From positions 1 to 15,759 of the forward strand of contig JACCYY010000073.1 of NCBI GenBank assembly GCA_013696235.1: 15,759 nucleotides of DNA, in the 5' to 3' direction. Made by a program: the position numbers and the translations under genes. Within the stretch, counting starts at the first letter, position 1. Each line of letters opens with the position of its first letter. This document shows positions 7,699 to 13,512 of this stretch, in pieces. The notes under the pieces are model-generated. The model had not been told where the DNA came from. It did not search any database and saw nothing but the letters and a program-made list of their open reading frames with translations. The DNA comes from Sporichthyaceae bacterium. GTDB taxonomy: Bacteria > Actinomycetota > Actinomycetes > JACCYY01.

Positions 7699-8544
7699 TC
7701 AGCGACCGTCGGCCTCGCGCTCGGCCCGCTCGAGCTCGGTCACCGCCGCCACCTCCGCCGCGCGCCGCCGGCGGTCGGCGTCCACGATCATCGCCACGGC
7801 GTCGTCGACCTCGTCCACCACGGTGATCAGGTCGATGTCGGCCTCCGAGACGGTGCCCCGCGCGAGAAGCGTCGCGCGAACCCAGTCGAGCAGGCCGCTC
7901 CAGTACGCCGACCCGACGAGGACCACCGGGAACCTGGTCACGCGCTGGGTCTGGACCAGCGTCAGCGCCTCGAACAGCTCGTCGAGCGTGCCGAAGCCGC
8001 CGGGCAGGAAGACGAATCCCTGCGCGTACTTCACGAACATCGTCTTTCGCGCGAAGAAGTACCGGAACGTGATCCCGATGTCGACCCACGAGTTGAGACC
8101 CTGCTCGAACGGCAGCTCGATCCCGAGCCCCACGGACACCCCACCGGCTTGGCTCGCACCCCGGTTCGCCGCCTCCATCGCGCCCGGGCCGCCGCCGGTG
8201 ATGACTGCGTAGCCGGCCTTGACCAGCGACTCACCGAGGCGCTGCCCGAGCGCGTACACGGGGTCGTCGCGGTGGATCCGGGCGCTGCCGAAGACACTCA
8301 CCGCCGGTCCGAGCTCGGCGAGCATCCCGAAACCCTCGACGAACTCGCCCTGGATGCGGAGCACCCGCCAGGTGTCCGTGTGCACCCAGTCGGCTGCGCC
8401 GCGGGTATCGAGCAGGCGTTGGTCGGTTGTGCTCTCCTCGAACTGGGTACGACGCAGCGTCACCGGGCCACGCTGCTTCTCCCGAGGCGGCTCGGTCGGC
8501 GCTGGCAGGGCGCCGTCCGCCGGCTCCGGGCGTTTCGCTGGCAT
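7699..8544 (-). CDS. LOG family protein (TIGR00730, lysine-decarboxylase-like Rossmann fold)
   Basis: This 281-residue protein has GGGPGAMEAANRGA at 117-130 and PGGFGTLDE at 181-189, the nucleotide-binding and PGGxGTxxE signatures of LOG proteins. AVSVFGSARI (81-90) is the first Rossmann strand. LOG proteins release free cytokinin-type bases and ribose-5-phosphate from nucleoside monophosphates; the 'lysine decarboxylase' name often given is misleading. An N-terminal extension of about 50-60 residues, rich in Pro and charge and poorly ordered in appearance, precedes the domain. The ATG at 8544 lacks a Shine-Dalgarno but has TAGCCT 7 nt upstream, suggesting a leaderless mRNA. The gene is convergent with folP2 across 9 bp. 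Confidence 0.92.
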   Translation of the reverse strand: MPAKRPEPADGALPAPTEPPREKQRGPVTLRRTQFEESTTDQRLLDTRGAADWVHTDTWRVLRIQGEFVEGFGMLAELGPAVSVFGSARIHRDDPVYALGQRLGESLVKAGYAVITGGGPGAMEAANRGASQAGGVSVGLGIELPFEQGLNSWVDIGITFRYFFARKTMFVKYAQGFVFLPGGFGTLDELFEALTLVQTQRVTRFPVVLVGSAYWSGLLDWVRATLLARGTVSEADIDLITVVDEVDDAVAMIVDADRRRRAAEVAAVTELERAEREADGR

Positions 8545-8551
8545 GGCGTCG

Positions 8552-8557
8552 AGGCTA
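8552..8557 (-). promoter_or_regulatory. Putative -10 box of the LOG gene (leaderless type)
   Basis: TAGCCT on the minus strand fits TANNNT and lies 7 nt before the ATG, with no Shine-Dalgarno in the gap. It overlaps a small inverted repeat (AGGCT-AG-AGCCT, 8552-8563) that could be an operator. Spacing fits transcription starting at the A of ATG. Confidence 0.45.
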
Positions 8558-10248: not shown

Positions 10249-11325
10249 TCACTCCGGGCCGGGCGCCGCGGTGAGCCAGGCGCGCATCTTGGTCTCGCAC
10301 TCCCCGATCTCGGCGACCGCGACGTGCTCGTGGCGGGCATGGGCGACGTTCGGGTTGCCCGGCCCGTAGTTCACCGCGGCGATGCCGAGCTGGGCGAACC
10401 GCGCGACGTCGGTCCACCCGAACTTCGGACCGGGCTGCCCGCCGATCGCCGCGACGAACGACGCGGCGGCGGGCAGGTCGAGACCCGGTCGAGCACCCGG
10501 TGCGCTGTCCATGAGCGTGAGCTCGAAGCCGGCGAAGAAGTCCTCCAGGAATCGAAACGCCGCCGCCTCGTCGTGGTCCGGTGCGAACCGGTGGTTCACC
10601 GTCACCACGCAACGGTCGGGGATCACGTTGCCGGCGACCCCACCGGCGATGCCGATCGCGTTCACGCTCTCGCGGTAGCGCAGACCCTCGACGTCCGGCT
10701 CTCGCGGCTCGTACGCGACAAGCCGGGCCAGGACAGGTGCCGCGGCATGGATGGCGTTGGCCCCCATCCACCCGCGCGCGGCGTGAGCCCGCACTCCCGT
10801 CGTGGCGACGTCCACGCGCATCGTGCCCTGGCAGCCGCCCTCGACGGTCGCGCTGGTCGGCTCCATGAGCACCGCGAAGTCAGCGGCGAGGAGCTCAGGT
10901 CGCTCGTCGGTGATGCGCTTGAGGCCGTTGCGCTCGGCCTCGACCTCCTCGCACTCGTAGAAGACGTAGGTCACGTCCCGTACGGGTGCCGGCACGGTCG
11001 CTGCCAGGCGCAGCCCGACCGCGACCCCACCCTTCATGTCTGCGGTGCCGATGCCGTGGAGGACGCCGTTCTCGAGCCGGGACGGGTAGTTGTCCGCGAT
11101 CGGGACGGTGTCGAGGTGACCGGCCACGACCACCCGCTCGGCCCGCCCGAGCCGCGTACGGGCGACCACGGAATCACCGATCCGGACGACGTCGAGATGG
11201 GCGATCGGTCGCAGGGCGGCCTCGACAGCGTCGGCGATCTCCCGCTCTTCACCGCTCACGGACGCGATGTCGACCAGGGCCGCGGTGAGTCGAGCGCCGT
11301 CTTGGGAGAGATCCAGTTCTGCCAC
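10249..11325 (-). CDS. dapE: Succinyl-diaminopimelate desuccinylase
   Basis: This cytoplasmic M20-family metallohydrolase cleaves N-succinyl-LL-diaminopimelate to LL-diaminopimelate and succinate in lysine and peptidoglycan synthesis. In the 358-residue protein the two-zinc site is visible: H70 and D72 (GHLDTVP), D96 (GTADMKGG), catalytic E126 with ligand E127 (CEE), E155 (LMEPTSA) and a C-terminal His in ARHEHV (332 or 334). The dimerisation lid is the middle segment around 175-285. The frame is open far upstream on this strand, opposite dapD, but the family N-terminus begins at the GTG at 11325 ([13 protein letters not shown]). There is no Shine-Dalgarno; a TACGGT -10 lies 6 nt before it. 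It is divergent from dapD, as in mycobacteria. Confidence 0.95.
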
Positions 11326-11330
11326 GCGGG

Positions 11331-11337
11331 TACCGTA
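11331..11337. promoter_or_regulatory. Palindromic bidirectional -10 element between dapE and dapD
   Basis: The palindrome TACCGTA offers a TANNNT box on both strands. TACCGT on plus ends 7 nt before the dapD GTG; TACGGT on minus ends 6 nt before the dapE GTG. Neither gene has a Shine-Dalgarno, and the whole gap is 18 bp, so both mRNAs would be leaderless. No good -35 is seen on either side; those regions lie inside the opposite coding sequence. Confidence 0.6.
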
Positions 11338-11343
11338 ACGGCC

Positions 11344-12348
11344 GTGACCGAATCGCTGGCGAGCCGTCCCGATGGGACAGATCACGGGACAGATCACGGG
11401 GCGGGTGACGGCTCCCCCGACGACGGCGCCTGGGCGGACGGGATCGCCACGATCGGCTCCGCCGACCAGGTGCTCGACGTCTGGTACCCGAGGCCCGCAC
11501 TCGGTCAGCCGCCTGACCCGGCGGTGCCGGCCGAGGACCTCGAGGCGCTGGTCGGCACGGACGACGTGCGCCAGGTCCGGCTCGCGGCGGTCCGGACCGT
11601 CCTCTCGTCGCTCGCTGCCCCACCCGCCGACGTACCGGACGCGTACCTGCGCCTGCACCTGCTCTCCCACCGGCTCGTCGAGCCGCACGGCCTGAACGTC
11701 GAGGGCATGTTCGCGGTGCTCAACAACGTGGTGTGGACGTCCGCGGGACCGTGCACCGCCGAGGATTTCGAGTCCACCCGGCTGCGGCTGCGCGCGGCCG
11801 GTGTGCGGGTGACCGTCTACGGCGTCGACAAGTTCCCGCGCATGGTGGACTACGTCGTCCCGAGCGGGGTCCGGGTGGCTGACGGCGACCGGGTCCGCCT
11901 CGGCGCCCACCTCGCGCCTGGGACGACCGTCATGCACGAGGGCTTCGTGAACTTCAACGCCGGCACCCTCGGGGTCTCCATGGTCGAAGGCCGGATCACC
12001 GCCGGCGTCGTGGTCGGTGACGGTTCGGACATCGGCGGCGGCTCGTCGATCATGGGCACGCTCTCCGGCGGCGGCAAAGAGGTCGTCCGGATCGGCGAGC
12101 ACTGCCTCCTCGGCGCCAACGCCGGCGTCGGGATCTCCCTCGGCGACGACTGCGTCGTCGAGGCCGGCCTCTACGTCACGGCCGGCACCCGGGTGGCGCT
12201 GCCCGACGGTGCGGTCGTCCGAGCCCGTGAGCTGTCCGGGCGCGACGGCCTGCTGTACCGCCGCAACAGCGAGACGGGAGCCGTGGAGGCGCTCCCGCGC
12301 TCGGGCACGTGGGGCGGCCTGAACACAACCCTTCACGCCAACCAGTAG
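11344..12348 (+). CDS. dapD: 2,3,4,5-tetrahydropyridine-2,6-dicarboxylate N-succinyltransferase
   Basis: This trimeric hexapeptide acyltransferase transfers succinyl from succinyl-CoA to tetrahydrodipicolinate in the succinylase branch of meso-DAP/lysine synthesis. The 334-residue protein matches the long actinobacterial DapD (Rv1201c, about 317 residues). Conserved blocks include [74 protein letters not shown] and [13 protein letters not shown]. The left-handed beta-helix runs through about 180-295. The N-terminus has an unusual hydrophilic extension containing GTDHGTDHG, encoded by a tandem 12-bp repeat. No in-frame start codon lies nearer the conserved region, so the GTG at 11344 is chosen and is probably leaderless. 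It is divergent from dapE. Confidence 0.96.
11374..11397 (+). repeat. Tandem 12-bp repeat inside dapD
   Basis: GGGACAGATCAC occurs twice head to tail with no mismatch and stays in frame, giving GTDH twice in the N-terminal extension of DapD. A 12-bp unit preserves the frame and could vary in copy number by slippage. Confidence 0.8.
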
Positions 12349-12374: not shown

Positions 12375-12455
12375 GCTCGGGGCCAGGCGCGAAACCGTAC
12401 GGAGGTGCGGCTCGTTGGGACGGGAAGCAGGACGAGCGAGTCGGGGGTGACGCAC

Positions 12456-13415
12456 GTGCGCAGGTTGGCCGGGGTGGCGATCGTCACGGTGCTGGCCGCT
12501 GCGCTCGTCGTCGCGGCCGTCATCGGGCTCCGCTCGGTCGGTGTCATCGGCCCCTCTGAGCGCTGCGTCGCCGAGGTCGACGGAGTGACGGTCAGCCTTG
12601 ACCTCGAGCAGAGCCGGCACGCCGCGTTGATCGGGGCGGTGGCCACCGCCCGTGGGCTGCCGGCTCGGGCGATCACGATCGCGCTCGCCACCGCCTACCA
12701 GGAGTCCGACCTGCGCAACGTCGACTACGGCGACCGGGACTCCCTGGGGCTCTTCCAGCAGCGCCCGTCGCAGGGCTGGGGCACTGCCGCCGAGGTGCAA
12801 GACCCGACGTATGCCACCAACGCCTTCTACGACGCTCTGGTCCAGATCACCGACTACCGCGAGCTGCCGGTGACCGAGGCCGCCCAGGCGGTCCAGCGCA
12901 GCGCCTTTCCCGGCGCGTACGCCGACCACGAGGCCGACGCCCGGGTACTCGCGTCCGCGCTGTCGGGCAACTCGCCGGCAGCGTTCTCCTGCGAGCTCGC
13001 GGTCGACGACCTCGAGGGCGAGGTGCCGCTCGCGAGCGGGCTGACTCCGCGTGCGCAGCGCGTGCTCGACGACGCGCAGGCCGCGTTCGGCCAGCAGAGC
13101 GTCGGCGGCTTCGATGCCGCTGGCGTCACCTCCGGCCACATGGCCAGGTCTGCGCACTACGACGGCCGCGCGGTCGACGTGTTCTTCGCCTCGGACGACC
13201 CCGCGGCCGTGCTGCGCGGCTGGTCCCTCGCGCACTGGGTCGTCGCGAACGCAGACCGCCTCGAGGTCGCCACCGTGATCTACCGAGACCAGATCTGGAC
13301 GGCCGCTCGCTCCGGCGACGGCTGGCGCCCGTACGTGCCACCGGACGGGCCGACCGACAACCCGACCCTGCGCCACCTCGACCACGTCCACGTCGACGTC
13401 GTCGCCGGTGCCTGA
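12456..13415 (+). CDS. Exported or anchored cell-wall protein: transglycosylase-like domain plus M15-like C-terminal domain
   Basis: The N-terminus MRRLAGVAIVTVLAAALVVA is a signal peptide or anchor. Residues of about 50-165 hold a lysozyme/lytic-transglycosylase-like block: AYQESDL with candidate acid E83, then DRDSLGLFQQRPSQGWGT. The C-terminal part has SAHYDGRAVD (H234, D241) and HLDHVHVDV (H307, H310, H312), echoing the SxHxxGxAxD and HxH metal ligands of M15/LAS peptidases. I recognise the latter as the ARB_07466-like domain of actinobacterial proteins, whose activity is poorly known. It probably binds or cuts peptidoglycan. Homologues are often mislabelled as heavy-metal transporters. 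In-frame GTG starts exist at 12405, 12447 and 12456; the last has GGGGG at 8 nt and begins the signal sequence directly, but 12447 is possible. Confidence 0.8.
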   Translation: MRRLAGVAIVTVLAAALVVAAVIGLRSVGVIGPSERCVAEVDGVTVSLDLEQSRHAALIGAVATARGLPARAITIALATAYQESDLRNVDYGDRDSLGLFQQRPSQGWGTAAEVQDPTYATNAFYDALVQITDYRELPVTEAAQAVQRSAFPGAYADHEADARVLASALSGNSPAAFSCELAVDDLEGEVPLASGLTPRAQRVLDDAQAAFGQQSVGGFDAAGVTSGHMARSAHYDGRAVDVFFASDDPAAVLRGWSLAHWVVANADRLEVATVIYRDQIWTAARSGDGWRPYVPPDGPTDNPTLRHLDHVHVDVVAGA

Positions 13416-13421
13416 TCCTCC

Positions 13422-13512
13422 TCCCGATGATCAAGGAATTTCTGCCCGTGACGCGGTGCCAGGAACCTGGCTCCGGACCGTCAGAGGGGCAGAAATTCCT
13501 TGATCATCGGGA
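13422..13512. repeat. Long perfect inverted repeat with nested hairpin overlapping the dapC stop
   Basis: Two 26-bp arms (13422-13447 and 13487-13512) are exact reverse complements around a 39-bp centre. The arms start TCCCGATGATCA and include the AT-rich AAGGAATTT, unlike the flanking DNA. The centre holds a second stem, GCCAGG-AA-CCTGGC (13458-13471), flanked by CGG and CCG that also pair. The element lies between convergent genes, 6 bp after one stop, and its right arm contains the last codons and stop of dapC. It may be a bidirectional terminator or a miniature repeat of mobile or REP-like origin. Confidence 0.85.

Follow-up and report, generated by a model that had tools for sequence, protein, structure and literature searches.

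The 18 bp that separate dapE from dapD in the window (the whole stretch of 15,759 nucleotides analysed here) most probably constitute a bidirectional housekeeping promoter of sigma-A type that is reduced to its core and serves two leaderless mRNAs; judged from the sequence, we assign this reading a probability of roughly 0.86. The two genes are divergent and lie back to back, the gap occupies 11326-11343 with the start codons 19 bp apart, and positions 11323-11346 of the plus strand read CAC GCGGG TACCGTA ACGGCC GTG. The source is a fragmented genome of 1.92 Mb in 384 contigs with 72.8% completeness, and searches at the level of its family and its order covered this one genome in each case. 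The junction comprises the following features:

10249..11325, minus strand: dapE, succinyl-diaminopimelate desuccinylase, 358 aa with a GTG start, assigned from its translation (TIGR01900 equivalog)

11344..12348, plus strand: dapD, tetrahydrodipicolinate N-succinyltransferase, 334 aa with a GTG start, assigned from its translation (TIGR03535 equivalog)

11323..11325, minus strand: GTG, start codon of dapE and, from the spacing, its putative transcription start

11344..11346, plus strand: GTG, start codon of dapD and, from the spacing, its putative transcription start

11331..11337, both strands: TACCGTA, the putative shared palindromic -10, in which -11A of either strand pairs with -7T of the other

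11331..11336, plus strand: TACCGT, -10 hexamer of dapD, 7 nt before the GTG

11332..11337, minus strand: TACGGT, -10 hexamer of dapE, 6 nt before the GTG

11328..11340, both strands: predicted symmetric promoter core of 13 bp, SRN-TACSGTA-NYS, here GGG TACCGTA ACG

Comparison with NCBIfam equivalogs identified both proteins with scores above the family cut-offs (DapE, TIGR01900, 493.5 bits against 304.2; DapD, TIGR03535, 488.2 bits against 441.5). The dapD start is well fixed, as no in-frame ATG, GTG or TTG lies between the GTG and the conserved core. The first-pass annotation had described an 18-bp gap containing TACCGTA, with a -10 at a distance of 7 nt from the GTG of dapD and of 6 nt from that of dapE, and the letters confirm this. 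They also bear out its claim that neither strand carries a Shine-Dalgarno sequence, because the 20 nt upstream of each start contained none, the best AGGAGG matches being 4/6 at a distance of 14 nt for dapD and 3/6 at 13 nt for dapE. Rfam yielded no matches in the window. Just within dapD, a 12-mer is present in two exact tandem copies (11374-11397) and codes for part of the N-terminal stretch, which with 28 codons before the conserved core (start codon nearest to the core) is the longest among the 95 pairs described below. Further downstream, two perfectly complementary arms of 26 nt enclose a loop of 39 nt (13422-13512; -71.9 kcal/mol, z -11.4). This inverted repeat follows the frame 12405-13415 of the plus strand and overlaps the last codons at the 3' end of the dapC frame; it resembles a two-way terminator or a small repeat element.

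In TACCGTA, -11A and -7T of one strand are paired with their counterparts on the other, which is a criterion for bidirectional promoters, and both genes show two sequence hallmarks of leaderless genes, namely a -10 located 6-8 nt before the start codon and no Shine-Dalgarno sequence. Counting both strands, the window (71.5% GC) has seven TANNNT, of which the gap holds two, and the TANNNTA of the gap is its single copy. The pattern CAY-N5/6-TANNNTA-N5/6-RTG likewise occurs once in the available genome (1.92 Mb, 72.8% complete). By chance, both sides would have a box at one of three spacings at a rate of about 4e-7 per start pair, if the sides are taken as independent. A thymine at -18 was absent; taking the GTGs as starts, this position is a G in both directions. 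Twenty contigs of the same genome and the window, 106 kb in all, contain 56 TANNNT, 13 of which precede the start codon of a coding-like frame by 6 or 7 nt; every other spacing up to 30 was found at most three times.

Two more starts of leaderless type were observed in the window, both on the minus strand. At 1543-1558 the ATG of a glgC-like gene (PF00483) has TAGGGT 7 nt upstream, and at 8542-8557 that of a PF03641 gene has TAGCCT at the same distance. TANNNT is rare in the window, where about 40 would be expected on both strands from the TA and T content. N3 is the least frequent spacing in the window and also in the 106 kb of its genome and in the loci of relatives; as TA-N0-T, TA-N6-T and TA-N9-T are also low in the window, the scarcity is partly a matter of codon structure.

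Relatives were collected by four routes. A dapD search in a draw from the class Actinomycetes matched 253 of 296 genomes, from which the best 30 were taken as loci, and a dapD search in named genome contigs supplied the best 80 of 573 relatives; a dapE search in the same class draw matched 271 of 296 genomes and supplied 30 loci, and 60 further regions were fetched by coordinates, mostly from families with dapE close to dapD. From these 200 loci we removed 27 without a dapD match, one without a usable dapD start, 55 without dapE in the fetched stretch and six duplicates. This left 111 distinct divergent pairs, 95 of them with a gap below 200 bp. The sample is not free of bias; the pairs are related and partly hand-picked, so that counts among them are non-independent. 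The codon nearest to the conserved core was taken as the start, a rule blind to promoter letters; under a relaxed rule up to four candidate starts per gene were allowed.

With the nearest-start rule, TANNNT was located 6, 7 or 8 nt before the dapD start in 83 and before the dapE start in 71 of the 95 pairs, while any other spacing from 0 to 49 was represented by at most three pairs. With up to four candidate starts per gene, boxes on both sides were present in 88 pairs and on one side in six; a single pair, L129, had neither. Shuffling of the letters between the genes with fixed start codons (300 rounds) gave both boxes in a mean of 0.15 and a maximum of 3 pairs against the 88 real ones, and a mean of 0.033 palindromes against 19. 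These 88 pairs and 19 palindromes support the first-pass proposal of a symmetrical -10 common to two leaderless genes.

Three geometries were distinguished. In 19 pairs, including that of the window, one TAC[CG]GTA palindrome would be shared and the starts are 18-21 bp apart (gaps of 17 bp in 13 pairs, 18 bp in five and 20 bp in one). Another 16 pairs have two boxes with one TA in common, gaps of 22-25 bp and starts 23-26 bp apart, and in the remaining 53 the boxes are separate and the gaps measure at least 28 bp. Eight of the 19 palindromes agree with the nearest starts, and the other 11 require another candidate start. The closest start-to-start distances were thus 18 bp (13 pairs), 19 bp (5), 21 bp (1) and 23-26 bp (16), and none of the 94 pairs with a positive gap fell below 18 bp. 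L183, which has a negative gap under the nearest-start rule, perhaps owing to a misplaced start, was left out of this count. In L089 and L180 the palindrome is kept beside dapE and the dapD start is found about 40-50 nt further off behind a Shine-Dalgarno-like AAGGA, possibly reflecting a change from leaderless to leadered at dapD.

The symmetry is not confined to the -10 hexamers. All 19 palindromes are TAC[CG]GTA, although the hexamers of separate promoters would make TAGSCTA the likelier palindrome (product ratio 216 to 80), which is used in none of them. SRN precedes the -10 on both strands in all 19 palindromic pairs (38/38 sides), compared with 63 of 106 separate boxes and 18 of 32 boxes with a shared TA; SR makes up 37% of dinucleotides in the compared loci. 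In some relatives (L158, L161, L089) the palindrome extends to 13-15 bp. It had been suggested that each -35 region lies inside the opposite gene, and this part of the first-pass annotation was not borne out. In the window, no sigma-70 -35 (TTGACA-like, 16-18 nt upstream of the -10) and no promoter-like site of this kind was found. TTGACA-like sequences at spacers 16-18 were not enriched in the relatives either (mean matches of 0.68-2.12 across classes and sides against 1.30-1.41 over all spacers), with at most one sequence per class reaching 4/6. At spacer 21 on the dapD side, five of the 19 palindromic pairs reach 4/6 for TTGACA; these matches were tentatively taken for coding letters of dapE. 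A search for GnTTnG-like elements in the relatives gave no signal in either direction, with at most one full match per class and spacer. What accompanies the -10 is instead the SRN on both sides of all 19 palindromes.

A tree of DapE from the 95 pairs contains a branch with a support of 100/95 that splits 44 rows from 51. All 19 palindromes and no TA-shared boxes are found on the 44-row side; all 16 TA-shared pairs and no palindromes are found on the other. Quick and careful trees placed identical rows on either side of this split. DapE of the window groups with L117 and L140, both palindromic (100/88), its long end branch making the exact placement less sure. Among these related rows, the palindrome requires five changes on the tree, compared with a mean of 17.7 after shuffling. 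Its origin as one clade was rejected (AU p 0.0007). The tree, being unrooted, is compatible with one gain and later losses as well as with multiple gains. The idea that separate boxes on the palindrome side are split palindromes was also rejected, since TACSGT is not enriched there (7 of 40 hexamers, compared with 11 of 66 across the split).

The design is apparently not confined to the dap genes. At least one match to CAY-N5/6-TANNNTA-N5/6-RTG was present in 250 of 296 genomes, with counts not above those of a control in which the pattern was reversed. This control, which often exceeds the real counts, was set aside; as AT is commoner than TA in these genomes, raw pattern counts are uninformative alone. 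From 40 genomes, a subset picked by family after the counts were known, 30 loci were obtained. Coding-like frames were present at both ends in 18 of them, including three dapE/dapD pairs, and five more (L235, L239, L241, L246 and L238, which is the locus of the window) failed the composition margin only. Outside this subset the figure was 4 of 27 loci, and the design is therefore infrequent class-wide. A protein scan of 20 proteins from 10 loci revealed a pair of genes for an AidB-like acyl-CoA dehydrogenase and a BrkB-family protein in two families (L236, L256, L257), two AI-2E-family transporters (L221), biotin ligase with a carboxyltransferase (L243), and 5-formyltetrahydrofolate cyclo-ligase with UTP-glucose-1-phosphate uridylyltransferase (L253). 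In genome G026, dapD and a glyoxalase-domain gene appear to share a symmetrical TAACGTA -10 (L222); this gene is situated between dapD and dapE, and dapE lies about 700 bp from dapD (L199). In a control for spacing, a coding signature on both sides was found in 34 of 75 cases at spacings 5-6, a figure favoured by the fetching of control loci for dap genes or for this very spacing, compared with 1 of 7 where one of the two spacings was 4 or 7 and 11 of 91 at far spacings, 10 of these 11 being junctions already counted and read with a second start.

Taken together, we propose that RNA polymerase, presumably with sigma-A, binds the palindromic extended -10 SRN-TACSGTA-NYS in either orientation. 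Transcription in either direction would then start with the first base of a GTG, some 7 nt beyond the -10, giving a leaderless dapD mRNA one way and a leaderless dapE mRNA the other. The geometry suggests steric exclusion of two polymerases, and binding would then be mutually exclusive; at ordinary firing rates the two directions would probably be nearly independent. The element, its spacing, its symmetry and its recurrence in relatives can be read from the sequences themselves, and compactness combined with leaderless starts accounts for the data more parsimoniously than forced reciprocity. Several observations count against this proposal, namely the 11 of 19 palindromic pairs that depend on a start other than the nearest, the boxless L129, the six one-sided pairs and the lack of T at -18, to which the palindromes of 13-15 bp may be added, as these are explicable as an operator too.

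Such an operator, with the palindrome as the site of a regulator and the promoters elsewhere or merely overlapping, would suit these longer symmetries of L158, L161 and L089 as well as the palindromes that L089 and L180 retain by dapE although their dapD start has moved away. Nevertheless, the 53 pairs without a shared element still have TANNNT 6-8 nt before each start, and the constant part of the 19 palindromes is the -10 with its SRN, the letters beyond it being variable; we consider an operator very improbable. Slightly less credible still are wrongly annotated starts, with both mRNAs leadered and beginning inside the opposite gene. The dependence of 11 palindromes on a non-nearest start speaks for such errors, but a start rule blind to the box yielded a narrow maximum at 6-8 nt upstream of both genes across the 95 pairs, a Shine-Dalgarno sequence is absent at both genes, and dapD offers no alternative start before its core.

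The first-pass annotation had gone further and claimed that the shared element forces reciprocal or balanced expression. In this reading a single element obliges the polymerase to choose, which would set a reciprocal or fixed ratio of dapE to dapD, and this coupling would be under selection. Both enzymes belong to one pathway, the palindromes in the DapE tree cluster on a single side, and bidirectional promoters of E. coli do compete once one direction is substantially activated, the partner being repressed (parts of PMC12825309). According to the same parts of that paper, however, the basal activity of the five E. coli bidirectional promoters tested was too low for competition for RNA polymerase, which leaves the claim unsupported. 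Moreover, conservation of the palindrome across relatives had been named as the test by which the claim could be refuted, and 69 of the 88 pairs keep divergent starts of leaderless type without it (53 with separate boxes, 16 with TA alone in common), which argues against forced reciprocity. Unrelated gene pairs use the same design, and in G026 the partner of dapD at the shared -10 is the glyoxalase-domain gene and not dapE. Because relatives often have separate boxes and dapD can take another partner, forced reciprocity is an unlikely reason for the arrangement, if a somewhat better candidate than an operator or misplaced starts. The shared element is better understood as a long-standing, compact and tolerated layout, in which two genes depend on one promoter core, than as a switch, and it may have a mild effect on ratio or noise. 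More tentatively, and with more doubt than confidence, one can speculate that the junction is an ancient minimal unit, in which a 13-bp symmetric core fills almost all of the gap between two leaderless start codons set as close together as leaderless genes allow (18-19 bp), that has been kept for coupling noise or ratio of cell-wall and lysine enzymes and represents a general design elsewhere in actinobacteria.

The bidirectional promoter and the leaderless mRNA would here be joined in such a way that promoter geometry and gene start share the same coordinates. This offers a rule that can be checked in actinobacterial maps of start sites: divergent leaderless starts should never be less than 18 bp apart and should favour 18-19 and 23-26 bp. 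Furthermore, the promoters of this gene pair, apparently shared in some relatives, half-shared in others and separate in the rest, provide a natural series in which the effect of sharing on ratio and noise can be tested.

In the main texts searched, we found neither published start sites of dapD or dapE nor a description of a shared bidirectional -10 and leaderless mRNAs as one arrangement; one review (PMC12857756) contains both 'bidirectional promoters' and 'leaderless'. For the start sites, this applies to parts of PMC3898074, PMC6448022, PMC4633059 and PMC3890552 (dap names; dapE not in PMC4633059) and to passages of PMC3848588, where dap names were outside the search. The known parts would thus be combined in a variant for which no description was found in this literature.

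Bidirectional promoters are defined by divergent start sites 7-25 bp apart (PMC10268837, in part), and those of E. coli prefer distances of 18 bp, then 10 and 23 bp (PMC12825309, in part). With the class described by Warman, Grainger and co-workers in E. coli and Salmonella, the dapE/dapD gap has the coincidence of -11A and -7T in common, and both the 18-bp and the 23-bp geometry recur among the dapE/dapD pairs. The 10-bp class was represented in none of 94 pairs and would by its geometry clash with a start codon. In contrast to the E. coli class, both putative start sites coincide with start codons, so that the gap would be wholly promoter, and the -10 is extended by SRN on both sides; thymine at -18, common and non-obligatory in E. 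coli, is absent from the gap.

Passages of the actinobacterial literature report TANNNT at 73% of primary start sites of Mycobacterium tuberculosis, with no -35 motif found and SRN before 49% of TANNNT promoters (PMC3898074), an ATG or GTG as 5' end sufficient for translation in mycobacteria (PMC4633059), and 33% of mRNAs leaderless in Corynebacterium glutamicum (PMC3890552); TANNNT has also been reported as the leaderless signal of bacteria. P. acnes has TANNNT and in addition a GnTTnG element near -36 (passages of PMC3848588), which was not enriched at the dapE/dapD pairs. Two divergent leaderless mRNAs are likewise known from prpD/Rv1129c, one of the closely spaced divergent promoters of M. 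tuberculosis, where, unlike the case proposed for dapE/dapD, the consulted part of PMC3898074 mentions no common -10 element. As in the leaderless TANNNT genes of actinobacteria, dapE and dapD have TANNNT 6-8 nt before RTG and lack a Shine-Dalgarno sequence; unlike them, the two opposite leaderless genes would be served by a single box.
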